The notes below the pieces were generated by a model that did not search any database, was not told the DNA's origin, and saw only the letters and a program-made list of their open reading frames with translations. Source: a virus. Taken from it: a stretch of DNA of 64,000 nt. The stretch covers positions 1 through 64,000 of IMG/VR virus record IMGVR_UViG_3300042507_006854; one strand, given 5' to 3'. This document shows, in pieces, positions 15,917-54,800 of the stretch; the stretch's first letter is position 1, and the number at the start of each line of letters is the position of its first letter. The translations under genes were made by a program, and so were the position numbers.

Positions 15917-16494
15917 TGGGTAAAAGTTTAAATAAAAAAGCTTTACAATTAGAAATCCTGAGTAATAAAGCAATTAAACAATTTATTAGAGATCGGGTTT
16001 CTGAGGAGATAGAAGTGCAAAAAAATATTTTTTTAAAAGAATTTGAATCTCACCCAGTTACGCAAGAAATTGAGGGTGAAGAAAATGCCTCTAATATCTC
16101 TGGCACTCTTGGTGGTTATGGTAATTTATATTCTTTTTTAGGTTTTTCTAGGGGTTCCAATCCAACCTTACCTGTAAAAGTTTTAATTCAAAAAATAACT
16201 TTAAACAAAAACCCAACAGTTAAAAATAATGGTTACCAATTTAAGCTTACCGTTCCTTCGAAAGAGGAATTTGCTTCTGTTACTAAATTGCCATGGGAAG
16301 GTGGAAGAAGTTGGTTATTTGATATCGAAAAAGTTATTTCTGGTTTGGGGGCCTATTTATATGGAAAATTTTCAGGCTCAAGATCTGGAGGGGGTATACA
16401 AAGCAATTATAATTATTCTGGTAAAGTTTTTAAACCGACTAAATATTTTACTGGGATTTATAATAAATTTTTATTTAGAATAGGAGCGAAGTAA
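15916..16494 (+). CDS. tail completion / neck protein candidate
   Basis: 192 residues, third connector-position gene. N-terminal helix with RDRVSEEIEVQKNIFLKEFESHPVTQEIE, Gly-rich centre (ISGTLGGYGNLYSFLGFSRGS), then strands and a C-terminal LPWEGGRSWLFDIEKVISGLG segment followed by a Gly/Ser-rich loop. Head-tail joining proteins of the HK97 gp10 class have this size and place and a long first helix. I infer the class from context only. The stop overlaps the next ATG by one base. Confidence 0.5.
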   Translation: MGKSLNKKALQLEILSNKAIKQFIRDRVSEEIEVQKNIFLKEFESHPVTQEIEGEENASNISGTLGGYGNLYSFLGFSRGSNPTLPVKVLIQKITLNKNPTVKNNGYQFKLTVPSKEEFASVTKLPWEGGRSWLFDIEKVISGLGAYLYGKFSGSRSGGGIQSNYNYSGKVFKPTKYFTGIYNKFLFRIGAK

Positions 16495-17789
16495 TGAAAG
16501 CTAGTTATATAACAAATTTAATGTCAAGTTTTTATTTATGGTTGGATCATGAAATATTATATCATGGAGAAGCTTTTACAAATTATAGTGGAAAACTTTA
16601 TCCGTCTACAGACCCGAATTTCGCTAAAAACTCTTTATATAGCTCGCCGTTTCGTCAATGGGTATACGACCAGAGTATTCCTAATGCAAATATTCCTTCT
16701 GGTATTTTTATTAATAATAATTATATTTCTCGTGGAACTTATGGCTTAAATATTGACTTTAACAAAGGTCGTGCTATATTTTTAAATAGTGGTATAAATT
16801 CCAATAATGTAGCGGCAAACTATAGTTTAAAAGAATACAATATTTATTATACTGATGAACGTGAAGAAAAATTACTTTTTGAAAAAGCTTATAATTTAAC
16901 ACCGAAAGTAACTCAAATTATAAGTGGTTTGGGATATTTAGATACCCCTTATCCTTGTATCTTTATTAAACATCGTATTGGTGAAAACTTACCTTTTGCT
17001 TTCGGTGGCGAAGATTCTACAAAGACAATGATTCGTTGCATTGCTCTTGCTGCTAATAGTTTTTCTTTAGACGGGTTAATTTCAATATTAAGTGATAGCG
17101 CTCGTAAGGTTTTTCCAGTATTAACGCCAGATGATTTTCCATTTAACTATTTTGGAGATCTTAAAGCGGGGCAGAGTTTTAATTATATTAATTTATGTAA
17201 AGAACAATTGCCTTCTAATTTTGTTTATATAGATAAAGTAACCGTATCGAAACTAGACGAAATTGACAACGCAAAGATCAATAAAAAATGCGTTGCAGCT
17301 TTAATTGATTTTGAATTATCTCATGTTCGATCGCCTAGAATATCTAACAATAGTTCTTCGTCGAGTTCTTCGTCGAGTTCTTCGTCAAGTTCTTCGTCAA
17401 GTTCTTCGTCAAGTTCTTCGTCAAGTTCTTCGTCAAGTTCTTCGTCAAGTTCTTCGTCAAGTTCTTCGTCGAGTTCTTCGTCATCTAGCGTTGAAATTCC
17501 AGGCTCTTTATCTAGTATTTTAATTCAAAATGGTGGATGGAATATTTTAAATGGCACTTTTGATTATAGTGCTGAATTGAATAGCAAGCCTTATTATAAT
17601 AAAAATGGTGATGGTAATTTATTTATTGTTTGGTTTGACAACCAATGGGGTATATACGATTTTAATCAGAACCCTATAGATCCAATTTATTTTAGTACAA
17701 GTAATACCTTATATCCATGGAACGCACAAAATTGGTCTGCTATTAACAATATTTATTTACCAATACCAACTATTAATCAAATTATTTAA
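16494..17789 (+). CDS. tail-terminator-position protein with poly-Ser linker and C-terminal display-like domain
   Basis: 431 residues in three parts. Residues 1-286 are a globular beta-alpha protein sitting where tail terminators are encoded. Residues 287-332 are an uninterrupted run of 46 serines, from eleven 12-base repeats plus two codons. Residues ~333-431 form a small aromatic domain (GGWNILNGTFDYSAELNSKP followed by YYNKNGDGNLFIVWF) with the signature NGTY-x-NG-P-YY-x-DG-x-IxW. This resembles a short beta domain found at the ends of many unrelated phage and bacterial surface proteins. The layout suggests a virion ring protein that displays a binding module on a flexible tether. The function of the first part is inferred from position. 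Confidence 0.55.
   Translation: MKASYITNLMSSFYLWLDHEILYHGEAFTNYSGKLYPSTDPNFAKNSLYSSPFRQWVYDQSIPNANIPSGIFINNNYISRGTYGLNIDFNKGRAIFLNSGINSNNVAANYSLKEYNIYYTDEREEKLLFEKAYNLTPKVTQIISGLGYLDTPYPCIFIKHRIGENLPFAFGGEDSTKTMIRCIALAANSFSLDGLISILSDSARKVFPVLTPDDFPFNYFGDLKAGQSFNYINLCKEQLPSNFVYIDKVTVSKLDEIDNAKINKKCVAALIDFELSHVRSPRISNNSSSSSSSSSSSSSSSSSSSSSSSSSSSSSSSSSSSSSSSSSSSSSSVEIPGSLSSILIQNGGWNILNGTFDYSAELNSKPYYNKNGDGNLFIVWFDNQWGIYDFNQNPIDPIYFSTSNTLYPWNAQNWSAINNIYLPIPTINQII
17352..17483 (+). repeat. eleven tandem 12-base repeats encoding poly-serine
   Basis: Unit AGTTCTTCGTCA/G repeated eleven times in frame as Ser-Ser-Ser-Ser. The near identity of the copies (only A/G at the last base varies, mostly at the two ends) points to recent slippage or recombination, so length probably varies between relatives. 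Confidence 0.95.
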
Positions 17790-17841: not shown

Positions 17842-18930
17842 ATGAGCAGAAATAGAATCATTTATAACGTGTTAGCTCTTTATGCTAGCCAAGTAAATCC
17901 AAGTGGTCAGCAAACTGGTGCTGGTGCCGTTAAACAATTGACTCGCGTACAGTCTTTTGATGAGGATTTTTCAAGAAATTTAACTGATGTTAACCAATTC
18001 GGTAACTTGGCCGCTATTGACCGTATTGAAGTTGAAGCCCCAACTGTTAACGCAAGCCTTTCATACTACATTACAGATGGTAGTAACGAAAAATATTTAG
18101 GTCTCACCGTAACCCCAAACGGGGGAGCAATTAACGTTTCTTGTATTTCTGGGATTTTAAATAAATCAACGGATGAAAAAAATTATTATCTTTTAATTGC
18201 CGACGAAGGTAATGACGCGAACGGTTATAATGGTAACAGTGGTATTATTGGTGTCGGTAACGGATTTATTACTTCATATAGTGTTAATGCTGCCGTAGGT
18301 GAAATTCCAACAGCCACTGTTGACATGGAAGCTTTAAATATTCGTATTTATTCCAATGTTACTGGCGCTTCACAAGTACCAGCTGTAAACCCTGTTAATG
18401 GTTTACCAATTACTACCGCTCAATTTAGATTGCCAGTTGGTCAAACAAATGATAACGCTACTCAAGTAACAGCTTTACAACCTGGAGACATCGAATTTAC
18501 TCCAGTTGGAACAGTTGGTTACGATGAAGAAAACTTAAAAGTTCAAGACTTTACTCTTTCATTTGACTTAGCTCGTACTCCATTACAAAAACTCGGATCG
18601 AAATTCGCATTCTCTCGTGAAATTGACTTCCCAGTAACTGCTACCCTTGAAATCAATGCCGAAGTTGGGGATCTTAAAGATGGTAACTTGGCTGATCTTC
18701 TTTGCGCTACTGGAACGCATGATTTCACAATTACATTGAAGAAACCTGATTGCAGTGGTAATGGCCAAGCATCATTAAGATATCTATTCAAGGGTGCTAA
18801 AATTATTAGCCAAAACTTCAGTTCAGCAATCGGAGATAATGCTTCAATGAGCGCTACTTATGAAGTTCAACTTGGTGGACCACAAGATCTTGCAAAAGGT
18901 ATCTTTATTTCTGGTTCATACGCTGCCTAA
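17842..18930 (+). CDS. major tail tube protein
   Basis: 362 residues, followed by the second strong terminator. It lies upstream of the chaperone-position genes and the tape measure, which is the standard place. The sequence alternates strands in a way typical of the tail tube beta-barrel (SYSVNAAVGEIPTATVDMEALNIRIY, then EIDFPVTATLEINAEVGDL, then DNASMSATYEVQLGG). The phrase about 'T-a-d-V-d-m-e-a-l-n' near residue 160 is commonly seen in tube proteins of marine and freshwater phages. G+C-richer codon choice matches high expression. With 362 residues it is larger than minimal tubes, leaving room for a surface domain. No sheath gene is next to it. Confidence 0.78.
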   Translation: MSRNRIIYNVLALYASQVNPSGQQTGAGAVKQLTRVQSFDEDFSRNLTDVNQFGNLAAIDRIEVEAPTVNASLSYYITDGSNEKYLGLTVTPNGGAINVSCISGILNKSTDEKNYYLLIADEGNDANGYNGNSGIIGVGNGFITSYSVNAAVGEIPTATVDMEALNIRIYSNVTGASQVPAVNPVNGLPITTAQFRLPVGQTNDNATQVTALQPGDIEFTPVGTVGYDEENLKVQDFTLSFDLARTPLQKLGSKFAFSREIDFPVTATLEINAEVGDLKDGNLADLLCATGTHDFTITLKKPDCSGNGQASLRYLFKGAKIISQNFSSAIGDNASMSATYEVQLGGPQDLAKGIFISGSYAA

Positions 18931-19257: not shown

Positions 19258-20091
19258 ATGGATAAACAGAATAAAAATTGGATGTACAAATTTGAAGCCG
19301 TAGAGAGTATCTACAAGGAAGATAAAGAAATTGATAAGAAGACACGCTCATTTATTATTTCTAAGCCTAATCGTAGATTAAGAGAAGACGGAGAGCTTTT
19401 TTATGCTAGTGAAACATCAAGGTTTGCCAAAGCTGGCGTTTTACCAAAGGCGGCTTGGAATACAATTTTATCTAATGGTGGTGGAAGTATTAGCGAGAAG
19501 GAAAGAGAAGTTTATGGCGGTTTATTAATTAAATTTAGAGACGCATCTTTTGAATTACAATCTATTTTAATTAAAACCGAAAACGAAAGAACAAATCTTG
19601 AGAAAAAACGTGCTGATGAAATTTTAGTAGAATTAGAAGAAATTAGAAAAGATATTCAGTCATTTGAAGCTTCGCAAATAGCTATTTTTGAAAATACAGC
19701 TGAGGCCAAAGCAAGAAATAGAACCATTTTATGGTGGGTATTAAATCTCGCTTATGAAGATATAAATGGTGACATTAGGCCTCTTTTCGAAGGACAGTCT
19801 TTTAATGATAAGTTAGATAAATATGATTTCTTAGAAGAAAGTCAAGAAAATACATTTCTACTTTCCGTTATTAGAAGGTTTACCTATTTAATTACATTAT
19901 GGTTTTTGGGTAGAATCGAAACAGACGCTGATTTTGAAGACTTTGATAAATCTTTTATGAAAGATGGAACTGAAGACGAAGAATCTACGGAAATTGAATC
20001 TTCAAGTTCCTCATCTGTTGAGGACAAACCTTCTGAACCTGTAAGCTCTGATTCGTCTTCTAGTTCTTCGGAAGTTCAGGCTCCTCAGTAA
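19258..20091 (+). CDS. tail assembly chaperone candidate
   Basis: 277 residues, highly charged and helical, with a conserved-looking body (WMYKFEAVESIYKEDKEI, TAEAKARNRTILWWVLNLAY, LITLWFLGRIETDADFEDFD) and a Ser/Glu-rich tail (ESSSSSSVEDK...SSDSSSSSSEVQ). Genes between tube and tape measure usually encode chaperones that coat the tape measure during tail assembly, often made in a short and an extended form. Here the next gene is in the same reading frame, separated only by TAA and one codon, so an extended form by stop readthrough is possible. The chaperone call is from position. Confidence 0.55.
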   Translation: MDKQNKNWMYKFEAVESIYKEDKEIDKKTRSFIISKPNRRLREDGELFYASETSRFAKAGVLPKAAWNTILSNGGGSISEKEREVYGGLLIKFRDASFELQSILIKTENERTNLEKKRADEILVELEEIRKDIQSFEASQIAIFENTAEAKARNRTILWWVLNLAYEDINGDIRPLFEGQSFNDKLDKYDFLEESQENTFLLSVIRRFTYLITLWFLGRIETDADFEDFDKSFMKDGTEDEESTEIESSSSSSVEDKPSEPVSSDSSSSSSEVQAPQ

Positions 20092-20094
20092 TGT

Positions 20095-21117
20095 GTGGAT
20101 AAAACAACAGAGTTTGGAAGAATATATAGTGAAATAGCAAATGGCTATTCTAAACAAAATGTAAATAATAATGTTATTTATTTTAAACACCCTAGCTTAA
20201 CTGAGCATTTTAGTATTTATTCAAATTATGAATTGCTTTTGAAAGAAGCTAGAAATAAAGGCGTTCCCACGGAAGAAGAAAAAATTAAAGAAGCTATTGA
20301 GGGCGGCTGGTGGACCAAAGAAAAAGAAATGGAGATTTCTATTCTTAGAAAGACGATCACTAATCTTACTAAAACAAAAAATAAATTGGCATTGCCATCT
20401 CAAAAAACAGCTATAGAAAATCAACTTAGAAGCAGAGAAGCTATCCTATTAACTTTTTTAAAAGAACGGCAGGAGATTACCGCCTATACGGCTGAAGATT
20501 ACACTTCTCAAAGATTTATAGATGAGACAATACTATTATTAACATATAAAAATACTAATTTAACAGAACTATATTTTACCCTAGAAGATTATTACAATTT
20601 AAATGACAGGTACATAGAAAATATTAAAAACCTATATAATCAATACTCTATAGTTTTTTCACAACAAAATATCAAATGTATTGCTGCTTGTGGATTTTTT
20701 CAAAATCTTGTTTATTTAAATGACGATGCTTATAGCTTTTGGGGCAAGCCAACAGTCAAATGTACTAAATATCAAGTTGATGTTTTAGTATATGGTAAAA
20801 TGTATAAAAATTTTATTAAAAATTCCGCAGAAAATGGGAATGCCGTGCAGGAGGAAATCTTAAATGATCCTGAAAAATTAGTTGATTTTGTAGACAGTGC
20901 TACACAAGGTTCTAGCAAATTAAAAGGCCCAAATAAAAAATCAAAAGATAGTCGAAATATGGTAAGCAGTCTTGTTGGGGCGACACCAGATGATTTAAAA
21001 AAGATGGGCGTTAAAACTGAAAAACTGGCTGGGGGTAAAAGTTTACTGGAAATGGCTAAAGAATCTGGTGGTACTTTAGAAAAACATCAGTATTTAAAGG
21101 CGCGAGAAAGTAGTTAA
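20095..21117 (+). CDS. tail assembly protein, possible readthrough extension
   Basis: 340 residues from GTG 20095. It is in frame with the preceding gene: ...CAG TAA TGT GTG GAT. An ATG at 20091 is in another frame and stops after two codons. No good Shine-Dalgarno precedes the GTG. The protein is helical and charged (EIAYSR-like N-terminus, KEMEISILRKTITNLTKTKN, then LLTFLKERQEITAYTAEDY) and ends in a Lys/Ser-rich tail with a short helix. A place directly upstream of the tape measure suggests a chaperone or tail-initiator role. Either an independently started gene or the second half of a 619-residue readthrough product. Confidence 0.5.
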   Translation: MDKTTEFGRIYSEIANGYSKQNVNNNVIYFKHPSLTEHFSIYSNYELLLKEARNKGVPTEEEKIKEAIEGGWWTKEKEMEISILRKTITNLTKTKNKLALPSQKTAIENQLRSREAILLTFLKERQEITAYTAEDYTSQRFIDETILLLTYKNTNLTELYFTLEDYYNLNDRYIENIKNLYNQYSIVFSQQNIKCIAACGFFQNLVYLNDDAYSFWGKPTVKCTKYQVDVLVYGKMYKNFIKNSAENGNAVQEEILNDPEKLVDFVDSATQGSSKLKGPNKKSKDSRNMVSSLVGATPDDLKKMGVKTEKLAGGKSLLEMAKESGGTLEKHQYLKARESS

Positions 21118-21157: not shown

Positions 21158-24100
21158 ATGGCTGCTATTAATATTGATGTAGGCGCAAATACAAGACGAG
21201 CTGAAAGAGATATTCAGAAACTCGTAAGCAAGTCTTATAATATAAATTTAAAAACAAAAGGCGACCAACCTCTTGGGCGTATTACTGGTAAAGTTAATGA
21301 ATTTACTAAATCGTTAGACGCTTCTAATGCTCGCGTTATTGCTTTCGGTGCTAGCGCAGGAATTATTTTTGGAGTACAAAGAGCTTTTGAAGCATTAGCA
21401 ACTTCCGTTATAGACACTCAAAAATCATTGGCGGATATTAATGTTATTTTAAATGTTTCAAGTAGTCAATTACAAAAATTTGGTGGAGAATTATTTGGAA
21501 TAGCAAAGAATACTGGACAATCTTTTCAAGAAGTCGCCAAAGCTGCTACAGAATTTTCTAGACAAGGCCTGGGAATTGCCGAAACGTTAAAAAGAACTAG
21601 TGAAGCTTTAATCTTATCAAGATTAAGTGGGTTAGATGCTGCAAAAAGTGTTGAAGCGTTAACTGCTGCCGTTAACTCATTTGCAAGTCAAGCTGTAACA
21701 GCAACAGAAATTGTTAATAAATTTGCAAATGTTGACGCGGCTTTCGCTGTCAGTTCTGCGGACCTTGCAGATGCTATTTCCCGTGTCGGTAGTAGTGCGG
21801 CCCAATCTGGAGTAAATTTAGATGAACTTATCGCAATTGTAACTGCCGCGCAACAAACAACTGCTCGTGGCGGCGCAGTAATTGGTAACTCTTTTAAAAC
21901 AATTTTTACAAGGCTACAAAGAACAAAAACCATTGATTTATTAGAAGGTCTTGGCGTTAATACAAAAGATTCGTCTGGTCAAATTAAAAGCACAATTAAT
22001 TTATTAACGGATCTTGCCAAAGTATATGACCAGCTTGGAACTTTGCAACAAGCAGAAGTAGCTGAAAAAGTTGGTGGTGTATTCCAAATTAACATCTTAA
22101 AAGCTGCTTTGGCAGATTTAGGAAAAGAATTTTCTGTTTATAATAGTGCTTTGCAAGTTGCCGGTTCAAGTACCGATCAAGCAATTCGGCGTAATGAAGA
22201 ACTTAATAAAACTTACGCAGCACAATTAAATGCTATACAGGAAAATGCTAAGCAATTGGGCGCTAGCGTGGGTGATAGATTATTTGGCCCAGCTTTTAAT
22301 AGGGTAGTTGGAAATGCTAATGATATTCTTGGTACTGTTAATGCTGGTGACGGTAATGGGATCGGTGCAACGCTAGGAAAAGGAATCCTAGATGGTTTGG
22401 GTCAAGTTATTGCTGGTCCAGGTTTGGCATTATTGGGTGGTATTTTTATAAAGCTTTTTGCTGACTTAAGTAAATTTATAGGTGGAAGTTTAAAAGAACT
22501 TTTAAATCTAAATAACGCTTCAAAACAGCAACAAGCATTGCAACAAAGTATCTCGGCAATTTTACAAAAAAATCCTGATTTATTTAAATTAATGCAACAA
22601 GGTACCGTTGGTCTTAACAAGGGTGCTGAAATTTTATTAGCTAGTTTACGCGCGCAAACGGTTGAGTTACAAAAACAAGAAGCTATTGCTGCGAAAATTG
22701 CTGCTCAATTTTTAAGATCCGGTAATGTAACTATGGTTGGAGGTATTCCGACGGCTACCACAGGAAAACCACCAAAAACAAAATCTGGAGGATTTATTCC
22801 AAATTTTGCCAATGTATCGCAAAAACAAGTAATTGGCGAAACTGCTGGCGCGCTTAAAGGTGGGTACGAACCTGGCAAAATAGTTCGAATTAAAGGAATG
22901 GTGGCTAATGATGCCGAAGAATTTATAAAATATCAGGGAGTTTCAAAGCCTGAAATTAGACCGCCAGCAGATAGTAAAGCCGGAAAAGATCACCGTAAAA
23001 AATTAAAAAATAAATTAGGATTTATTCCTGGAGAAGATAAAGCTACTGGATTTATTCCAAATTTTGCAGAGGATAAAAATATTTTAAAATATCAAAAAAG
23101 TTTTGCTGCTGGAAAAGTTTTTGATAATGCTATTGCTTTATCTTTAGGATTAAAAAAAGCATATGTGGAAGATCGTGATGTTATTGATTTTGCTCCAAAC
23201 TTATTAGCGCCGCCAACAATTGATAATAAGGTTAAAACTCTTCTGGGTATTAACCCTAAAACTTTATATGGTGATGCAAAATTAAGCGGATCTGATGATA
23301 ATATAGCTAGTTATATATCTAAAATATTAAGATTACCAGGAACTCAAATACGTAATAACACAGTTATTCCCGCTAGTAAGGGTGGTTCAATATTAATTCC
23401 TGGAAGTGGCGATAACGATTCGTTAAAGAATCTTCGCGCTGGAGTGGGAACAATTTTAAAGAAAAACCCTAGCGTTGCACAAACCTCAGTATTTCAAAAC
23501 TCTGGATTAGAAAAAGGTGAGTCCTTATTTTTACCAAATGTTCTAATTGATTCTGTAAAAAATATAACAAGACAGACAGTTTTTGGTAATGTGGCTGGTG
23601 GAGGAAAAAATTTCCAAGATTTTAATGTAAGAAAATCTGCAGCTGAAAATATTGCTAGTAGATTTGGTTTTAAAAAAGCTAAAACTTTTGCTTCTGGTTT
23701 TATTCCAAATTTTGCAAAAGCATCTAAAGAAGAATCTGTAAACTTAGGCGATATAAGTTCAAACCCATCGTATAGATCAAAATTACTTTCTGTTATTATT
23801 CCCCAACCATCAAAAAGTTTATTAAAATTCCCAGCTGAAGCAAAATACGGAGATACATTATATACTACCACCGGACTCCCAGTATCAGGACCAAACCCAG
23901 ACATAACAAAAAGATTATCACAACAAAATATTCCAAATTTACATAAAAATATTGGTAAAGTTGTTCTTGATCAAGCTAATGTTTTTGGTCAATCATTAGG
24001 CGCAACAAAATTTATGAGTAGCGTTTCTGAATTACCCAATTTGGGTGGGGTCAATAGCGCTGCCGGAATTGCTTTTGAAGGTGGGGTACTGAACGCCCTT

Positions 24101-27100
24101 GGAAAATCAATTGGATCCAAAAATGCAAGAGTTGATTTTTCATCTGCGTCTCTAAATTCACAAATTAAAAAAATATTTAATAATGCCCCTGGTTCGTATG
24201 AAGCTAAAAATAGACCATCGAGACCACTGATTAATGATGGTTTTTTAAAATTTTTAAGTCGTGCAAAGCCAGGGTCCGTAAAATCACCAAGGAGCGGAGG
24301 ATTTAAGGAGGCGCAGGCATTAAGAGCACAGGCGTTAAAGAATTTTGAATTAGAGGGTCGTACATATAAAAGAGGCCCTCAATTAAACAATGAAATTGAG
24401 AAAGAAATAGCTAAAATTAGAAGTAGTAGGGGTATGGCTGCTGGTTTTATTCCGGATTTTGAAGAAATGAAACAAAGCGCAATGAGCGCCGAAAGAAAAT
24501 TCGGTAAAGGTGCTAAAATGGATGAATATAAAGGATTGTTATATGTTCGCCAACCAGGACAATCTTCTAATTTCAAAACGATGATGAAAGAAGATCATCC
24601 AGAAGGTTTTGCAGCAGCCGTTGCTAATTCTGCTAAGTCTCAAGGAATTGCTAGTCAAGGATTTATTCCAAACTTTGCAATTAACGAAAGCACCGCCCCA
24701 GCAGATTTAACTGCATCAATTTCTGCTGTCGTTACACAATTAGGCGGGCTAGCATTTATGCTATCTTTTGCAAAAGGTCAATATCAAGAGTCTTTAAAAC
24801 AATTGACTTCTGCAAATGTGGCCGCTGCAAAAGCTCAAGCTCAAAATGTTTTAGCTTTAAAAAAATTGCAAGCAGGAGGCGGAGTTAGAAATGAGCCTGG
24901 TGGATTCCTGAATGCACAACAATCGATTAAAAGAGCTGAGGCGGGGACATTTGCACAGAAATCTGGAGCCTTGCTTGGTTCAAATGCCCTAGCCCTTACT
25001 TTTCTTGGCCCTATTATAGCAGAAACAATTAAAAATGCGATTGGTCAACAAACAAAAGAGGCGAGGGTTCAGAGTTCTGTAGCAAGTGGATTTGGTCAAG
25101 CAGCTACTTTTGCTGGTTTTGGCGCATTGATGACGCCAATGAATCCTTTAGTTGGTGGGGGCGTTGGTCTCGCTGCTGGCGCAATGTTAGGATTAGTTGA
25201 TGTTATTAAACAGGCAAATACAAATATCCCAGAACTATCAGCAGCTGCGAAAAAAGCTTCTGAAGATCTTACTAGAATAAATGACGCTGGTCAGAAAGTA
25301 CAAACGCAATTTGAGCAAGTTTCACAATTAAGAGAATCTGGAGAACAAGAAAAAGCTGGAAAATTAGAAGCAGATTTACTGAAATTGATAGGAAAAGAAT
25401 TTAGAGATCGTCCAGAATTAGCTTCTCAAGCTGCTAGCGCTGTAATTAATCAAGATTTTAAATCTTTAACAGCGGCTTTAGAGAAAAATACTCAAGCAGT
25501 ATTAAAACAAAAAATAACAGAAGATCGTAACTTATTAATAGGAGAATTTATAGAGGGGGCTGGGGGTAAACAAGCTGGAAAACAATTTGTAGATATTGTT
25601 CCTATCGAAAGTTTTGATGAACAAGCTTTAAATAAATTGATAGAATTTTCTAATCAAGCCTCTCAAACGAAACCAGATGTAGTAAGAAAAGTTACTACGG
25701 GAGAAGCGTTTGGAAATCCATTAAATCAAAAAGCTTTTGAAAATACAAAGATAATAAGCGAAAACCTTTTAAATTTTCTAGCCTCAACTGAAAAATTAAA
25801 TCCAGGAGATATTGATAAATTACGAGCAGCTTTTGCAGATGATCCGGCTCTGGCTATTGAAGCATTAGCTGCGATTAAAAACCCCGCATTAGATACTTTA
25901 AAAGCTGTTGAGGCTACCGCTCGAAATAGCGCTAAAGGTAATAAAATTATTGCAGCTATTACAGACGCTTTATCAAAGGCGCAATCAATTTATGCACAAT
26001 TTGCTATTAATGCACAAGCTGCGGTTGATTTGCAACTAAGTAGTCAAAGAAGTATAAGAGAAGCTTATAAAAATATAGCAGAATCACAAGGTCAAAGAGA
26101 CGTAAGTCTTTTAACCGCCGTTGGAAATCCGCAAGCGGCTAAAAATGTTCGTATTAATACTGAAATTAAAAAATTTAATACTGAATTTGCTAATGCAGTA
26201 AATAGTTCTTTTGATAGCATAATAAGTAATGTCGCAAGCGCGGTAGTTACAAGCGGCCAAAAAACCTTGGCTGGATTTTCTGATATTGGCTCTGGAGACG
26301 GCACCGAAGGAAGAGCAATTCAAAACATTGACGCTGCGACAACTTTTGCGGAAGCTTTTCAAAGACAGTTTAATATTAATAATTTTAAAGACTTAATAGG
26401 AATTGGTGGCGAAAATTTTGATATACAAGATTTTGAAGGATTTAATGTACAAAGCGTCTTAAATGAAATATCTAGTAAATTAGGCCTTGATCAAGGAGAC
26501 CCCGAAGCTAAAGCATTGCTAGAAAGAATTAGAGAAAGTTTAAACGAAGCTAATACTAAATTATTAGACCAAAAAGCAATATTAGCTCAACAGCTTACGG
26601 TTTTAGCAAACCAAGAATATGCAGCAAATTTTCAAGAATTGATGACGGCTATCACCAAAAGTTTTGGTGGAATGGAGTCTTTTAGAAATTTTAATAATCA
26701 ATTTTCAATGACTGATGAATTGAATAGGGCTATTGGTAGCTTATTTGGATTACGTAATGCTTCTGGACCAAAAACTGATATTGAAACTGCTAGAGCGTTA
26801 TCTTCTATAGTTGAGGAGTTAAGCAAGTTGGCCGGAAGTAATATTGTAACAAATAGTCAAGGAGGACTTCGTCCAGAATTGGCTCCGGTTATTGATGCAA
26901 TTGTTAAGGGCCGGGCTTTAGATATTGAAAAAACCATTAATAGCGTTCTGACAGGACCGTTAAGTAAAACTGGTCAAGGCGGTGCTCTACAAACAGCATT
27001 TTTAAATGAATTAATAGATAACCTAGGAATAAGCAGAACAAAAGAAGATGGCACATTAAAAACCCAACAAGAGCTGGTAAGAGAGGTTTCTTTAAAAAAT

Positions 27101-30100
27101 GCTGAGATGCAAACAAAAGCTGAATTGGGTGTTGGAGAAATTAACAAACAAGTATTAGGCCAAGCTTTCAATATGTTGCCAGATAGCTTGAAAAAAGCTT
27201 TCAAAGAGCAGGGGATGGGAGCTTTTAATAGTATTGAGCAAATTGCTCTTGCTCAAGACTTGGCTCGAAATCAGTTATTGCAACAAATATTAGATACTCT
27301 TCGTGCTGGAACGGGTGAAAAGTATGGAGATTTTTCAGCTAGCAGAACTGGAACATTTAATCAAGATGCGGCTGGAGGAGGTGGCTTGAATCCTACGGGT
27401 GTTGGAAGAGCAGAAGACATCAATAATTACACTCCACAAGCCGTAGTCGAGCAAGCTAAGACTCCAGGAACCGATTCTTTTTCGAAAGCAGTTAGTGATA
27501 GAGTTTCGACCTTTAATGATGTTAATTTTACTGGGGAAGATGGATCTCCACGAACACTAAGTAAATGGTTTAATGAGCAAGCTCCTTTAGATTTAACTAC
27601 CGGCTTAACAACAAAATTATCAGATTTAAATGGAGTTATTGGTGCTGTTATAAATGATGAAATGATTCCAGATAATAGTTCTGAAAATCCAATGATGGTT
27701 CCAAAAGATCCTTTGGGATTAGGAATTAATGATGCTATAGGTACGACCGCTGCCGAAATTGCAGGAACAGATCCAGAATTACAAAAAGCTGCTGATTTGA
27801 TTAGAAATACCGATAGTAGGTATTCAGATAATGTTCCTTTGACTATAGAAGATATTAATGATAAGTATACTTCTTCATCATCTTCATCTTCTTCCGATGC
27901 TTATCAATCACAACTAGATAAAGATTACGAAGAATGGAAAGCAAAAAATAAAGCAAAAGGAGAAGTTCCTAAAGGTTTTAAAGATGAAATATCTTCAATT
28001 CGTCGTGGGGTGGGGGGTGCTAAACCATGGCATTCTCCTTATCTAACCGAAATTAATGGGGAACCAGCTTGGGTTCATACTGGGGAAACAGTTACAAAAA
28101 TGGGCCCAAATGGTGAAATGGGGGTTTTAACTCCGGATATGAAAAAAGCTTTAAATTTTGCTGAGGGTTCCATACCAGATGACTCAGCTGTCGCAGCATT
28201 TTTATCTCAATTCAGAAAAAAACGTAATTTTGGAGATGCCGGATACAAAAAATTTAGAGATTGGTTCCGTGCCAATGACGCTGCCGCACCAAAAAATTTA
28301 GGAGGAGCTCCAAGAACAAAAGGCTTTGGATTACAAAATTTTGCTAGGTATGGTAATGATTTATTTAGTGGAGGAACTGCGGGGGCCGGTGGCTATTTTG
28401 ATCCAGCAGATAAGTTTAATGCTTTTAGACCTCCGGTAATACCACCACCGATACCAGGAGCATCTTCTTTAGATAATACTATTAGACAAGATAGACTTGA
28501 TAAACAATTTCGTTTTTCTGAAAAGGACTTTAGAGTAAGAAGGCATGAATTTACACATGCTATGCAAAATGATACGGCTGGATCTAAAGCTGGACAAATG
28601 TTTAAAGGAAAAGCAGCAAAATTTTTTGGAGTCGGAAGAACTGATCCTCAAAAATTTGGAAAATGGACCCAACTAATTGAAGAAACTCAAGCAAGAATTG
28701 TCGAAAAAAGAAGTTTGACTGGCGGTGTTCTTGATATGATAAAGGATGCAGATTTTTATGCAGATTATTATAAAAAGAATCCAGAAGTTTCTAAATCATT
28801 TAAAATGCTTTCTCCTTTAAAACGTTTGGGCGATATACCATATGATCCTGTTTTACAAAAAATTACAAGCCCATTAAATTTAATGAGTCGTAATATTATG
28901 TCAGGTAATATTTCAGTATCTGAAGCTGGAAAAGGGATGGTCGAACAATTCAAAAATATTCCCCAGTTGTTACAAAATCCCGAAATGCTTAAACAATTGG
29001 GGGGTGGTATTTTAAAAGGCGGGGCTGTTGGTATGGGTACCCAATATGCTGGAGAAAAACTTATTCCAAAATTTGATGGTAAAAATAAGGATGGTGAGAT
29101 GTCTTATTTGGAAGAAGTTGCCAATGAATTAAGATCTTTTGGTATTGCAACCGGGTCTGGAGCAGCGGCTGGAGCAGCTGGAACCGGTGGCGCGGGAACA
29201 ATTTTAGGAGCTATTGCTGGAGGAACTACTGATGTTTTAGGTAAATTATGGAGATTAGGTTCTTCTAGCGTCGAACTAGCAAAACTTACATATGACGAGT
29301 ACGGAAGAGAAGATAAGATTAACGCCCAACAATCGGAATTACAAAATAGATCTAAAAAATTAGCAGAACAAGCTAGATTAAAACGTCAAAAATCAGAAAC
29401 GCAAAGAATGGAAAGTATAGGCATGTTAAAACAAAAAGGCCCATCCGTATCAATGCCAATGATGCCATCCACTTTAGATTTTGCAAATGCCGCAACTAGA
29501 AATAAACAACAAACACAATTTAATAAACAAATCACTACCGCACAAACAAAACCAACTAATCCATATAGACTAATCGGCGGAAAAGGAAATGCTCCGGCAA
29601 CTCAAATAGATACAAGAACTGGAACGGGAACTTTAGTGCCTCGTGCAGAAGCTGTTAATCCAAGTCGCGGAATTTCTACATCAACAAGTTATGCCCAAGA
29701 TCCAGAAGTTCAAAAAGCTATTAAGTCTGGTGACATTAGAGCTATTGAACAGGCAACAGTAAAAGCTAGAGAGAGGGCTGGTAAGTCATTCGAAACTCCT
29801 GGTAGTGATTTTGCTAGACAATATAAATTTAAAGAAGATTTAGTAACCGCTTCTCAGATTGGTGAAATTGGTGGTATCGTCACTGGAGGAACACAGGCTG
29901 AAGTTGATGATTATTATAAGAAAAAAGCCAAAGAATTTGGAATGTCAGATCGTTTTATTACAGATTATATTGAACCAAGAGAAAGAAGAAAAGAAGAGCA
30001 AAAACTAAACCCACCAAAAAGAAATTTTACTGAAAAAGGCGCTAGAAGTAGATTAAAAGATATATTGGATGGTTATGATGCTTTAATGCGTGGAAATAGA

Positions 30101-31261
30101 AGCATGGCTCAAACACAAGCATATCAAGCTAAAAAACAAGAATTACAAAGGTTATTTAATTCCGGTAATTTTGAAGGAATATATAATACATATGATTCTT
30201 TACCAAAGAGTGACCAGCCACGAGGGTTTAGAACTCAAGATGGAAGTTTTATAGTAGCTCCTCCGACTCCAACCCCAGAACCAGCGTATAGAAATGCTGA
30301 AGAAGCTCGTTTAGCGGGGAGAAACGTTTTGCGACCAGGGGCAGTTGGAGCGATGACAAGAGTAGAGCGCGATGATGGAACTTTAAAAACACTTTTTAAT
30401 GCTTCCTCTGTAAACCCAGAAATTCCAAAAGCAATGGCGGCAGCAAATGAAGCTGCAACAATGGCATCTATTAAACAAACTTTAGCTATTAGCGATTTTA
30501 ATAGTGGTAGGGGCCCCGATCCAAGAAAAATGGATTTTACTCCCAAAGTGTTACCCCCGGTTTTAGATTATAGTGGTAGTGTTTCACAGCCTGGATTAGC
30601 AAACTATAACCGTACCATGAATCTTTCGCCTATTAATCCTGAAGGTATAGATTTATATAAAAACCTCAAGGGAACTGAAAGACCAGATGGGTCTGTAAGC
30701 ACCGGAATTCCTAAATCATGGGAAACTATAAATAAAATAGAAGAAGAAAAGAAAAGGGCAAAAAATTATGCACAGGGATTAGTAAATAGATCCTTCTTGG
30801 CTGAATTAGCTAATGGTGGGGTTCCGGTTCAAGATAGTATTCCTGGAATCGGCCCTGTAGTTATCGATAAAAATACAGAATATAGCGCAGCTAATGCTGT
30901 AGCAAGAAAAGGTTTATCTCAAGGAATGTACGAATCTCGTAAAATGCAGAATATTTCTGCACAAGGTTTTTCTCCAAACTTTGCAGTTAAAAAAGCTGAT
31001 ACTCAACCATCTCCAAACAACTTTAGTATAAAATTGGGCGATATGGTAATTAATAGTGCTTCGGCTCAAAATAATCCCGAGCTATATGGTAAAGATTTTG
31101 GTTCCGAATTACAATCTAGAATTCCAGATGTTATTGAACAAATTAGATCTGACATGGATAAAAAATATGGTAGGGTTGCAGACTTAGTTCGTCAAAATGA
31201 AAATATGTTTGTAAACAAGGTTCCGCCTAAGTCTCGTGGAAACGCGGCCTTAAGAACATAA
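21158..31261 (+). CDS. giant tape measure protein with embedded enzyme-like segments
   Basis: 3367 residues. N-terminal ~350 residues are TP901/PhageMin_Tail-like (SKLAD-type helices; VAKAATEFSRQGLGIAETLKR; TARGGAVIGNSFKTIFTRLQ). GFIPNFA-type repeats lie at 545, 631, 847, 1096 (GFIPDFE), 1168 and 3270 (GFSPNFA). Between them are two PD-(D/E)XK-like segments: D656...D677...D706-A-K708, and E974...D993...E1015-A-K1017. Residues ~1180-2000 are long helices with hydrophobic stretches near 1270-1345. An 8-serine linker at ~2239 precedes HEFTH at 2463-2467 with Glu2508/2509 about 42 residues on, a gluzincin-like zinc site. Normal role: set tail length and pass into the host during DNA ejection. The enzymatic readings are from motif spacing only. 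Confidence 0.85.
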   Translation: MAAINIDVGANTRRAERDIQKLVSKSYNINLKTKGDQPLGRITGKVNEFTKSLDASNARVIAFGASAGIIFGVQRAFEALATSVIDTQKSLADINVILNVSSSQLQKFGGELFGIAKNTGQSFQEVAKAATEFSRQGLGIAETLKRTSEALILSRLSGLDAAKSVEALTAAVNSFASQAVTATEIVNKFANVDAAFAVSSADLADAISRVGSSAAQSGVNLDELIAIVTAAQQTTARGGAVIGNSFKTIFTRLQRTKTIDLLEGLGVNTKDSSGQIKSTINLLTDLAKVYDQLGTLQQAEVAEKVGGVFQINILKAALADLGKEFSVYNSALQVAGSSTDQAIRRNEELNKTYAAQLNAIQENAKQLGASVGDRLFGPAFNRVVGNANDILGTVNAGDGNGIGATLGKGILDGLGQVIAGPGLALLGGIFIKLFADLSKFIGGSLKELLNLNNASKQQQALQQSISAILQKNPDLFKLMQQGTVGLNKGAEILLASLRAQTVELQKQEAIAAKIAAQFLRSGNVTMVGGIPTATTGKPPKTKSGGFIPNFANVSQKQVIGETAGALKGGYEPGKIVRIKGMVANDAEEFIKYQGVSKPEIRPPADSKAGKDHRKKLKNKLGFIPGEDKATGFIPNFAEDKNILKYQKSFAAGKVFDNAIALSLGLKKAYVEDRDVIDFAPNLLAPPTIDNKVKTLLGINPKTLYGDAKLSGSDDNIASYISKILRLPGTQIRNNTVIPASKGGSILIPGSGDNDSLKNLRAGVGTILKKNPSVAQTSVFQNSGLEKGESLFLPNVLIDSVKNITRQTVFGNVAGGGKNFQDFNVRKSAAENIASRFGFKKAKTFASGFIPNFAKASKEESVNLGDISSNPSYRSKLLSVIIPQPSKSLLKFPAEAKYGDTLYTTTGLPVSGPNPDITKRLSQQNIPNLHKNIGKVVLDQANVFGQSLGATKFMSSVSELPNLGGVNSAAGIAFEGGVLNALGKSIGSKNARVDFSSASLNSQIKKIFNNAPGSYEAKNRPSRPLINDGFLKFLSRAKPGSVKSPRSGGFKEAQALRAQALKNFELEGRTYKRGPQLNNEIEKEIAKIRSSRGMAAGFIPDFEEMKQSAMSAERKFGKGAKMDEYKGLLYVRQPGQSSNFKTMMKEDHPEGFAAAVANSAKSQGIASQGFIPNFAINESTAPADLTASISAVVTQLGGLAFMLSFAKGQYQESLKQLTSANVAAAKAQAQNVLALKKLQAGGGVRNEPGGFLNAQQSIKRAEAGTFAQKSGALLGSNALALTFLGPIIAETIKNAIGQQTKEARVQSSVASGFGQAATFAGFGALMTPMNPLVGGGVGLAAGAMLGLVDVIKQANTNIPELSAAAKKASEDLTRINDAGQKVQTQFEQVSQLRESGEQEKAGKLEADLLKLIGKEFRDRPELASQAASAVINQDFKSLTAALEKNTQAVLKQKITEDRNLLIGEFIEGAGGKQAGKQFVDIVPIESFDEQALNKLIEFSNQASQTKPDVVRKVTTGEAFGNPLNQKAFENTKIISENLLNFLASTEKLNPGDIDKLRAAFADDPALAIEALAAIKNPALDTLKAVEATARNSAKGNKIIAAITDALSKAQSIYAQFAINAQAAVDLQLSSQRSIREAYKNIAESQGQRDVSLLTAVGNPQAAKNVRINTEIKKFNTEFANAVNSSFDSIISNVASAVVTSGQKTLAGFSDIGSGDGTEGRAIQNIDAATTFAEAFQRQFNINNFKDLIGIGGENFDIQDFEGFNVQSVLNEISSKLGLDQGDPEAKALLERIRESLNEANTKLLDQKAILAQQLTVLANQEYAANFQELMTAITKSFGGMESFRNFNNQFSMTDELNRAIGSLFGLRNASGPKTDIETARALSSIVEELSKLAGSNIVTNSQGGLRPELAPVIDAIVKGRALDIEKTINSVLTGPLSKTGQGGALQTAFLNELIDNLGISRTKEDGTLKTQQELVREVSLKNAEMQTKAELGVGEINKQVLGQAFNMLPDSLKKAFKEQGMGAFNSIEQIALAQDLARNQLLQQILDTLRAGTGEKYGDFSASRTGTFNQDAAGGGGLNPTGVGRAEDINNYTPQAVVEQAKTPGTDSFSKAVSDRVSTFNDVNFTGEDGSPRTLSKWFNEQAPLDLTTGLTTKLSDLNGVIGAVINDEMIPDNSSENPMMVPKDPLGLGINDAIGTTAAEIAGTDPELQKAADLIRNTDSRYSDNVPLTIEDINDKYTSSSSSSSSDAYQSQLDKDYEEWKAKNKAKGEVPKGFKDEISSIRRGVGGAKPWHSPYLTEINGEPAWVHTGETVTKMGPNGEMGVLTPDMKKALNFAEGSIPDDSAVAAFLSQFRKKRNFGDAGYKKFRDWFRANDAAAPKNLGGAPRTKGFGLQNFARYGNDLFSGGTAGAGGYFDPADKFNAFRPPVIPPPIPGASSLDNTIRQDRLDKQFRFSEKDFRVRRHEFTHAMQNDTAGSKAGQMFKGKAAKFFGVGRTDPQKFGKWTQLIEETQARIVEKRSLTGGVLDMIKDADFYADYYKKNPEVSKSFKMLSPLKRLGDIPYDPVLQKITSPLNLMSRNIMSGNISVSEAGKGMVEQFKNIPQLLQNPEMLKQLGGGILKGGAVGMGTQYAGEKLIPKFDGKNKDGEMSYLEEVANELRSFGIATGSGAAAGAAGTGGAGTILGAIAGGTTDVLGKLWRLGSSSVELAKLTYDEYGREDKINAQQSELQNRSKKLAEQARLKRQKSETQRMESIGMLKQKGPSVSMPMMPSTLDFANAATRNKQQTQFNKQITTAQTKPTNPYRLIGGKGNAPATQIDTRTGTGTLVPRAEAVNPSRGISTSTSYAQDPEVQKAIKSGDIRAIEQATVKARERAGKSFETPGSDFARQYKFKEDLVTASQIGEIGGIVTGGTQAEVDDYYKKKAKEFGMSDRFITDYIEPRERRKEEQKLNPPKRNFTEKGARSRLKDILDGYDALMRGNRSMAQTQAYQAKKQELQRLFNSGNFEGIYNTYDSLPKSDQPRGFRTQDGSFIVAPPTPTPEPAYRNAEEARLAGRNVLRPGAVGAMTRVERDDGTLKTLFNASSVNPEIPKAMAAANEAATMASIKQTLAISDFNSGRGPDPRKMDFTPKVLPPVLDYSGSVSQPGLANYNRTMNLSPINPEGIDLYKNLKGTERPDGSVSTGIPKSWETINKIEEEKKRAKNYAQGLVNRSFLAELANGGVPVQDSIPGIGPVVIDKNTEYSAANAVARKGLSQGMYESRKMQNISAQGFSPNFAVKKADTQPSPNNFSIKLGDMVINSASAQNNPELYGKDFGSELQSRIPDVIEQIRSDMDKKYGRVADLVRQNENMFVNKVPPKSRGNAALRT

Positions 31262-51837: not shown

Positions 51838-54800
51838 ATGAATTACGATAATCTACAAAAATACATAGAAAATCTTTATTTTAATACTCCAGAAACAATT
51901 CATGGGATCTCTTTAGGATATAAAATAAAAGATGGTGTTACAACAGATAAGCTATGTATAAGCTTTTTCGTTCCTAAAAAACTTGAAGCAAAAGACCTCG
52001 AAAATCAATACGTTATTCCAAAATCTATTGTTATTGACGGAACTGAATATTTAACAGACGTTGTTGAGACAAAAATGCCAATAGCAATTGGTTGTTTTAA
52101 TTGGCAAGCGTCTCCACTTCCTTCAGCAATAGTTCCTCACCGCTCTAGACAAAGGCCATTAAAAGGTGGCATTGTTATCTCAAATTATACAGATTTATAT
52201 AATCCTTTAAAAAATTCTATTGTAAAAGGGACTTTAGGGTTAATTTGTGTTGATAAAGATACGGATTCATTTGTTGGGTTAACCAATGCTCACGTAATTA
52301 TTAAAGACCCGTTTATTCCTTCAAATCAAGATGTAAAAGGTTTTTTAAGTAATATTTTGCCAGATAAAAAAATTGTTCAATATACCGAACCAAATATTAA
52401 TACCACAAATGATAATATAGGTAATATTAGAAAATTTTATCCTTTATCTAAAGATGCCTCGAATTATATCGATGCAGCTTTAATTTCTATTAAAGAATTT
52501 GTTGGTAATACATCAACACCTATTTTAAGTCAAACTGAATCCTGGAGACAGTTAGGTTTAAACTATAACAATCCGATGGAATTTGCTTCCACGCAAGAAA
52601 TTGATAGTTTATTAAATACGCCAAGAGAAATTTATTCAGCCGGAAGAACTACTGGACCAAAAGGATCTAACTGTCCTTTGCAAATAACAAATTTACTAAG
52701 TTCTTATAGTATAATATACGAAGAACAAGGAACTCGTGTTTCTGTTCCTTTTTCTAATTGTATTACATTTAAATATCAAGACAATTCTTTATGGTCAACA
52801 GCTCCTGGAGATAGCGGATCTGTTTTAATAGCAAATTTTAACGGCGCCTGGAAAATTATTGGTTTAGTTTTTGCTGGAGATGAGGGCGGAAGTTTCGGCG
52901 TTGCCTGTCGTATCGACACAGTCGCAAATAGATTAAATATTGAACCTTGGCTTAATGGGAATAAGAACTATATTCAAAATTATAAAACAGTATTAAAAAC
53001 TTTTGATGAGGGCGTATCCTTAATGAGTAATAATAATTCTAATTTATGGAATGTTACTCAAACAATTAGCGGAGATAAATATTGGTATGCTGGTTTAGTT
53101 GCAGACTCAAGTAGCTCATCTTCTGGACCTGCAACTTGGGATATTCAAATTCAAATGACTCAACCTAGTCAAAAGTTTTTTATAGATATCAGGGGTGGGA
53201 CGAATCCTAATTTTACTATTGACTGGGGTAATGGTTCTATTCAAACATATAATTCATTAGGTACAAAAGACTCAACGTATCCATTAACTGGCAATTATAT
53301 AGTCAAAATAAATGGTAGTTTTTCTGATAACGGAAATATTGCTATTAATAGTAATAGTTCACCAAATCTTGGAACACCAGTCTCCGCAGCAGTCAAATCA
53401 ACTTCTATAATGCCTTTTATTTCAGGTTTAAAATCTGTTAATGGGCTATTTTTCCAATCTACGAGTTTAACTTCTCTTCCAACTGGATTCTTTGATTTTA
53501 ATCCTCAAATTACTGATTTTTCTTCGGCTTTTTCGTTTTGTTCGTCTTTAAATTCTATACCATCCGGATTATTTAAAAATAATACGAATGCTATAAACTT
53601 TGGTAGTTCAGACACTTATGGTACTTTTAGAAGTACAGCTTTTACAAATGTTCCAAGTAATCTTTTTTATAATAATACGCTAGCTACTAGTTTTGTCGAT
53701 TGTTTTAATGACGTACCTTTAACAACAACTTCATATAGTAATTTATTGATAAACTTGGCATCAAATGCTGCTCAGCGTCCAAATAATGTAGTATTTGACG
53801 CTCGTAGCTCTCGTTATAATTGCAATGCTCAAGCGGCCAAACAGGTGTTGTTAGCGAAAAATTGGTCTGTTAATGATTTAGGGCTAGAAGGTACTTGTAC
53901 TTCTTCCTCGTCCTCGTCTTCTTCCTCGTCCTCGTCTTCTTCTAACAATCCTAATTTAAATACATCCTGTCTTCCATGTTGCCCAAGTTTTACTGGATCT
54001 TGGGCTGGAGGTATCAATGGACTAGGTATACTAAGAAATTGTACTTCGGAACTTTATGTGTGTCCGACTGGATGCTCAATAAAAAATCTTAATACTAATT
54101 TTACTACTACTGCTGGAGATCCAAATCTAATATTTATAAGCACTCTTGACGGGTCGGCGTATAAAAGAGCTTATATTCAGGGAATTGATAGCGGAGCTTC
54201 TTTCACGAATTATACTAATGTTCATAATACTCTTGTTTTATGGGATGGAGAACAAGATGGTACTACTTTCCAAGATGGCGACACAGTAAGATTTAGCGGT
54301 ACGCTTGGATCTCTTGATAATAGAATTATTAAAGGAATTGATTATAAAGTAGCCGTTATTCCCGAGAAATGTGCGCCGCCTTCTAATTATTTAAATAGTC
54401 AAGCTTTAGCAATTCAATGTGAATATAATCCTATTACGGACCCCTCTTGTTTTGATATATGTTCTGGCGGCTTAATTAATTATACAGTTGAAGCTCTTTA
54501 TTTACATACTTATGACCCAGGCAAATTCCCAGAATCGATATCAATATGTAGTGGAACAGAAGTAACCGGAACTAATAGTATTAGAATATTGACACCATAT
54601 TCTCCATCAAATTTTATACCACAAAATGCTCCAGATTTTTCAGGTATTGCTATTTTACCAAGCCTACAAGGATCACCAATAAATGTCGAGATTCAAACAA
54701 TTTTAAAACCAGGGGGAGCGCCTTTAATCGATATATCTAATGATAATATTAATTTTGGGCAAAATACAACTATTACAATTCCAGCAAATCAGTTAAGTGG

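Follow-up and report, generated by a model that had tools for sequence, protein, structure and literature searches.

Why does the protein that sets the length of a phage tail carry one seven-residue peptide over and over, with enzyme-like segments in between? The question is raised by a 64,000-nucleotide stretch of an uncultivated virus (the window; the first 64 kb of the 146,949-base record IMGVR_UViG_3300042507_006854), in which one open reading frame (ORF) encodes a tape measure protein with six copies of the peptide GFIPNFA or close variants of it. A preliminary description had proposed that enzymatic payloads lie between these copies and could act as early effectors. We found by computation that the protein belongs to a large group in which motif-bounded modules form an array, are exchanged between relatives and keep their active-site residues. 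The tape measure protein probably doubles as a payload carrier, whose exchangeable modules would be injected enzymes acting early.

An array of motif-bounded modules in tape measure proteins

The 3367-residue product matched PF10145 (2.1e-26), TIGR01760 (1.4e-33) and phrog_4211 (2.2e-51), and over its N-terminal domain the scores for TIGR01760 (116.4 bits) and PF10145 (93.5 bits) exceeded the curated cut-offs of 28.8 and 33.2, respectively. The great length of the ORF, its place downstream of conserved genes and its hydrophobic segments also fit a tape measure gene. All six GFIPNFA-type copies were found at the residues first given for them, as were the residues of two nuclease-like segments (D656/D677/D706-x-K708 and E974/D993/E1015-x-K1017), a run of 8 Ser (residues 2239-2246), HEFTH at 2463 and Glu2508/2509. 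A loosened form of the motif occurred 6 times in the protein, as against 0.003 expected from shuffles of the same protein. The features of the gene are:

21158-31261, plus strand: tape measure protein, 3367 amino acids, carrier of the array (PF10145, TIGR01760 and phrog_4211 matches)
21380-22342, plus strand: N-terminal tape measure domain, residues 75-395 (TIGR01760 match 75-395)
22790-22810, plus strand: GFIPNFA copy 1, residues 545-551 (DNA match and translation)
22811-23047, plus strand: opening module, residues 552-630 (cluster 2)
23048-23068, plus strand: GFIPNFA copy 2, residues 631-637 (DNA match and translation)
23069-23695, plus strand: candidate payload module B, residues 638-846, with nuclease-like residues G652, D656, D677, D706 and K708 (80 profile matches)
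23696-23716, plus strand: GFIPNFA copy 3, residues 847-853 (DNA match and translation)
23717-24442, plus strand: candidate payload module C, residues 854-1095, homologue of B, with G970, E974, D993, E1015 and K1017 (hhalign; 78-sequence alignment A2)
24443-24463, plus strand: copy 4, degenerate (GFIPDFE), residues 1096-1102 (translation)
24464-24658, plus strand: closing module, residues 1103-1167 (cluster 3)
24659-24679, plus strand: GFIPNFA copy 5, residues 1168-1174, end of the array (DNA match and translation)
24776-25495, plus strand: first part of the tape measure body, including hydrophobic stretches, residues about 1207-1446 (profile in about 105 relatives)
28544-28684, plus strand: HEFTH (2463-2467) to Glu2508/2509, zincin-like, outside the array (HExxH shuffling P 0.001)
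30965-30985, plus strand: copy 6, isolated and C-terminal (GFSPNFA), residues 3270-3276 (translation)

The array runs from the opening module through B and C to the closing module and is followed by the body, where hydropathy peaks near residues 1184-1206, 1269-1289 and 1329-1350. The proposed position between repeats held for B and C but not for the HEFTH segment, which lies 1289 residues beyond the last array copy, and the interval 22789-28690 proposed for the whole arrangement contains the array and HEFTH but omits copy 6. The location of this copy is unusual, a motif so close to the C-terminus being rare among relatives. The part between the array and copy 6 (residues 1175-3269) is far longer than the corresponding part of most relatives, and for its middle and end the set of proteins compared contains no relatives.

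A scan of viral contigs found GFIPNFA, GYIPNFA and GFVPNFA in at least 120 viral stretches for each variant, while the reversed peptide at equal codon degeneracy, used as control, gave 22 stretches with one copy in each. Two or more strict copies were present in 207 of the 276 long ORFs from motif loci. The pattern G[FYLH][IVL]PNF occurred 825 times in these 276 ORFs, against 0.05 expected from shuffles, a count that alone is biased because the ORFs had been collected by the motif; a fair test is given by the control peptide and by repetition inside single ORFs. A profile search detected the tape measure N-terminal domain in 128 of the 133 motif ORFs that have their own N-terminus, the remaining 5 being single-copy and unrelated. 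In most ORFs the first copy lies at 537-860 amino acids (median 627), directly after the N-terminal domain, and the last copy mostly 800-2000 amino acids ahead of the C-terminus, so that the site of the array is constant, between N-terminal domain and tape measure body. The distance between these two parts ranges from 496 to 2002 amino acids and tracks the copy number (r 0.77).

Copies within one protein match at positions -3, -2 and 0 to +6 and fall to background level beyond, giving the border consensus [AS]x-G-[FY]-[IV]-P-N-F-A, and codon identity between copies was 57%, compared with 51% expected from codon usage. Since the flanks are at background and codon choice is near expectation, conservation applies to a peptide some nine residues long and neither to a word of DNA nor to a larger domain. 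The codon test thus speaks against a motif acting at the DNA level. Phage lambda gpH has a C-terminal maturation site, and this explanation of GFIPNFA was also rejected, because the motif lies within 250 amino acids of the C-terminus only in the window protein and a handful of others. GFVPNFA in a virion-like protein (L253, L281, L297 and L321) and in a DNA polymerase (L264) was single-copy and was read as chance. The virion-like protein, of about 1830 amino acids and not a tape measure protein, also has a zincin motif (HEYVH or HEYIH).

Exchange of modules and enzyme-like cassettes

Cutting the proteins at the motif yielded 620 segments in 143 clusters, 88 of these with a single member. The ends of the arrays are fixed: opening clusters 2, 5, 9 and 11 (about 70-83 amino acids, the module being of some 76) headed the array in 76 of 80 cases, and closing clusters 1 and 3 (64-70 amino acids) ended it in 122 of 128. 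What lies between them varies, with 24 and 17 kinds of module preceding the closing clusters (17 for cluster 3) and 77 different module orders among the 101 ORFs with at least three segments.

Exchange was measured on 589 internal homology ends from 513 pairs of proteins at least 55% identical. The motif lay within 10 amino acids of the homology end in both partners in 59.9% of cases, compared with 1.3% for random positions, and still in 51% after dropping repeated break points; ends near motifs are slightly favoured in these figures, being drawn a few residues by the motif's own score, and counts taken at 5 amino acids call for caution. One two-module cassette, 87.6% identical, was found at different places in two loci (residues 274-572 of L062 and 1206-1503 of L291), its edges 3 and 8 amino acids from motifs. 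Together the clusters and the homology breaks bear out the earlier suggestion that GFIPNFA delimits segments, marking the borders of exchangeable modules.

Several modules of related arrays resemble enzymes. Single array segments scored above cut-off for SNase (1.9e-9), GNAT (4.1e-7) and a cytidyltransferase-related nucleotidyltransferase family (6.1e-8). In a P-loop module family the Walker A motif is invariant, and P-loop proteins of the PDB were matched at 8.9e-8; in a HAD family the catalytic motifs DxDxT, TxR, Lys and DD are all invariant, and the L278 member matches phage polynucleotide kinase (3.8e-4). Disparate domains occur in one chain encoded among virion genes: the nucleotidyltransferase module of L051 shares its reading frame with PF10145, L278 joins a HAD module to the tape measure, and L067 combines the tape measure with nuclease-like, P-loop and weak GNAT modules. 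Recognisable enzymes at the same place in relatives thus partly sustain the proposal of enzymatic payloads in a tape measure protein; B and C matched no nuclease fold and the HEFTH segment no family.

The HAD modules of L278 (residues 1358-1716), L021, L091 and L067 gave matches to the phosphatase portion of phage polynucleotide kinase. Several arrays hold HAD and P-loop modules together; such cassettes are possibly separate halves of a polynucleotide kinase/phosphatase for nucleic-acid end repair. Modules resembling protein kinases, ADP-ribosyltransferases and ParB (ParB_N, E 0.043) were seen by eye and are leads only. Among them, segments starting LYRG (L278 residues 1510-1716, L089 residues 1247-1496 and L041 residues 638-847) resemble ADP-ribosyltransferases and had no library match.

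Modules B and C and the HEFTH segment

Profile searches of the set gave 80 matches for B and 140 for C, and the two modules are homologous to each other (hhalign 99%, E 5e-18). Both are members of a single large family in which G..FE, D and [DE]xK hardly vary. Across the 80 matches of B, the Gly and the first acidic position are conserved in 100%, the Asp in 96%, the second acidic position in 100% and the Lys in 89%; the window protein has Asp656 where 96% carry Glu. In alignment A2 of C (78 sequences), G970, D993 and K1017 are invariant and E974 is conserved in at least 90%, and alignment A3 has likewise near-invariant columns. The alignment of homologues therefore upheld the catalytic residues named in the preliminary description, and the arrangement typical of PD-(D/E)XK enzymes was found, with E in a helix (E/D 100%), D (96%) and [DE]xK (89-100%), suggesting a metal-dependent nuclease-type site in B and C.

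Structure prediction came out differently. AlphaFold gave good models (predicted local distance difference test scores of 90.7 for C and 80.0 for B), in which Foldseek detected no nuclease fold: neither model matched the PDB, in a sequential comparison that may miss a permuted core, and the C model did not match BFVD. Short helices are predicted to separate the D strand from the [DE]xK strand, which is unusual for PD-(D/E)XK. No named nuclease family was matched by B or C in Pfam, NCBIfam, PHROG or the PDB. Because the models matched no known fold, the word nuclease is applied to B and C from their residues, and PD-(D/E)XK nuclease as a family name is premature and should not be used yet. Thus the proposed nuclease identity is retained for the residues, near-invariant in a large family, but not for the fold or the name. 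Nuclease activity itself would follow from these residues by inference.

In a few B-like modules (L102, L248 and L076/L094) His or Tyr stands in place of the Lys. DAH or DAY replaces DxK in L102 (residues 636-814), L094 (residues 557-732) and L248 (from residue 422), a group whose activity may have been lost or changed. Kinship of B and C with more classical D-x9-ExK modules was not significant by hhalign. A match of A3 to proteins annotated in the PDB as plant lectins (7.5e-5 for the whole sequence, 0.06 for the best stretch) covers GxxFE..D without [DE]xK and was read as chance.

The HEFTH segment lies in a stretch that has no relatives in the set. HExxH arose in 0.1% of shuffles of the window protein, being rare by chance because the protein holds only 7 His, and the motif is followed by Glu2508/2509 as in gluzincins. 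The segment had no Pfam or PDB match. A DNA scan of viral contigs for HEFTHAMQ returned one other site, again in a tape measure protein (L330), with a weak partial pairwise match to the window segment (E 2e-4). This protein (L330:3-5597) is a different tape measure protein (phrog_9807, 6.5e-22) without GFIPNFA, from a second tape measure lineage. The peptidase proposed here is plausible on the strength of HEFTH and the downstream Glu, but it has no named family and stands outside the array, as a matter separate from it. The zincin is unlikely to be a universal array protease, as HExxH occurs in few arrays and in the window lies outside the array. Elsewhere in the window, a 1204-residue ORF (51838-55452) has a protease match at residues 20-368 (phrog_20754, 2.7e-22) and is a possible protease in trans; no relative of it adjoins the other GFIPNFA loci compared.

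Probable function of the array and related systems

Tape measure proteins exit the tail at ejection and reach the inner membrane, as supported for lambda by proximity labelling (PMC13190303). In the mechanism that we favour, a linear array of exchangeable modules would sit between the N-terminal domain and a membrane-active body, each module bounded by a GFIPNFA-type peptide, with an opening and a closing module of fixed kind at the two ends of the array. Enzymes with nucleic acids, nucleotides or proteins as substrates would account for many of the larger modules. Stored in the lumen of the tail, these would reach the cell interior as the tape measure protein is expelled in advance of the genome. 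Several would need the co-substrates ATP or acetyl-CoA, and enzymes requiring these are sensible only in the cytosol. Acting within the first minutes, they may serve as host-takeover or counter-defence factors, a role which fits frequent exchange with retained active sites; delivery and timing are what we infer from this pattern. The payload of the window phage would be the two related modules B and C, with their PD-(D/E)XK-type active-site signature.

At each border GFIPNFA would be recognised at the level of the protein. A short constant peptide that parts independent modules is reminiscent of the cleavage sites in polyproteins, and processing that frees the modules is its likeliest role, although we hold this tentatively. 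Second in likelihood, and somewhat more doubtful, is docking that holds modules in the tube or on a chaperone, which would explain the motif on the small end modules too.

Several results weigh against the payload-carrier interpretation. Besides the slight bias of the homology ends, the replaced Lys of some B-like modules, and the missing fold match and unusual topology of B and C, zincin motifs were found in few arrays, no protease for GFIPNFA was identified, and no function is assigned to the majority of the 143 clusters. No isolate phage bearing the array was found: tblastn with array modules or the HEFTH segment returned no relatives in the isolate phage genomes of the collection used (lone match E 0.5). 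Payload relatives were absent from GTDB genomes with the exception of one contig of a metagenome-assembled genome (L240), and the motif was absent from the 50 kb examined of Microcystis phage MaeS, a distant terminase relative.

The tail genes next to the array bear on the best surviving alternative. The six genes directly upstream of the tape measure gene are kept alongside it in 52-142 loci and therefore form with it one tail module common to many phages; their identities are assigned from position only:

17842-18930, plus strand: tail gene, 362 amino acids, probably the major tail protein (by position); homologues in 142 loci
19258-21117, plus strand: two genes (19258-20091 and 20095-21117) at the usual position of tail assembly chaperones; homologues in 102 and 115 loci, respectively

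The product of 17842-18930 had no Pfam match. A tail-region protein of 431 amino acids (16494-17789; homologues in 52 loci) contains an unbroken run of 46 Ser, and shorter Ser runs occur in the product of 19258-20091 and in the tape measure protein.

Conservation of the chaperone-position genes together with the array-bearing protein would be expected if the modules served the structure or assembly of the tail (in packing, chaperone binding or the tail tip), each docked by GFIPNFA to the tube or a neighbouring subunit, their enzyme likeness being a relic or serving assembly only. The strict motif around small opening and closing modules that do not look enzymatic, and B and C without a fold match, point the same way. 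We nevertheless consider this unlikely, as the payload differs between close relatives, unlike assembly parts, active-site residues are kept while the remainder diverges, and SNase, GNAT and nucleotidyltransferase have no known assembly role. Very improbable is that GFIPNFA serves chiefly to assist recombination, as a conserved word of DNA for in-frame swapping with no function as a peptide: module borders do coincide with the motif and homologous cassettes do lie at different places, but it is the amino acids that are conserved and not the DNA, as the codon identities show, and a stretch of 20 bases whose third positions are free offers little length for homologous exchange. Least probable of all is delivery to the periplasm or envelope to aid passage through wall or membrane. 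Wall hydrolase motifs are known in tape measure proteins (Piuri and Hatfull 2006, as cited in PMC13277306), and the HEFTH of the window, like other HExxH segments, could belong to a peptidase acting on wall or envelope; but the modules met most often (E-D-[DE]xK, P-loop, HAD and GNAT) depend on nucleic acids or cytosolic co-substrates, and the array segments scanned included no wall hydrolase.

The nearest known kind to the payload carrier proposed here is the polyvalent proteins of phages and conjugative elements (Iyer et al. 2017, PMC5512222), in which many unlike enzyme domains (nucleases, GNAT, ADP-ribosyltransferases, zincins and others) also share a single giant chain; its gene lies among virion genes, and its entry into the host along with the DNA is predicted. 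That paper makes no mention of tape measure proteins, whereas here the tape measure is itself the carrier; a single invariant peptide stands between its modules, and the array begins and ends with fixed modules. T4 Alt and the N4 virion RNA polymerase (reviewed in PMC5512222) are likewise virion-borne enzymes that are injected along with the genome, but as separate proteins and not as modules of the tail ruler. Tme, from a contractile injection system of Streptomyces davawensis (PMC11126660), is a tape-measure-like protein with a nuclease that acts after delivery; it belongs to a bacterial injection system and has a single C-terminal EndA-like nuclease, with no array or delimiter described. 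Sle1-type effectors of actinobacterial contractile injection systems (PMC13277306) share a tape-measure-related platform and an exchangeable functional domain, but they have a coiled-coil N-terminus, one C-terminal domain and bacterial hosts, in contrast to the several central modules of a phage protein with a TIGR01760 domain. The tape measure protein of mycobacteriophage TM4 has an extra enzymatic segment, a wall-hydrolase motif (cited in PMC13277306), which in the account given there acts on the wall, with no exchangeable array or delimiters. Neither a multi-module, motif-delimited array in a phage tape measure protein nor the motif itself was found in the literature searched, a search whose scope did not include subscription papers and preprints.

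A bolder version of the payload-carrier proposal, which we regard as possible though doubtful, is that in a large uncultivated siphophage-like group the tape measure protein is a polyprotein-like vehicle, whose cassettes would be cleaved free at GFIPNFA on entry and exchanged in an integron-like manner, as an injected counter-defence kit specific to each phage.

The ruler protein of hundreds of related uncultivated phages thus carries swappable enzyme-like modules, suggesting a made-to-order enzyme kit injected with the DNA. If this is true, the tail ruler would also be an injector cartridge, and a tag of seven residues would reveal from sequence the probable injected proteins of many uncultivated phages. 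The 143 module clusters, including the 88 single ones, would then list candidates for early proteins of host takeover and counter-defence, and roles of tape measure proteins beyond setting tail length would become directly testable.

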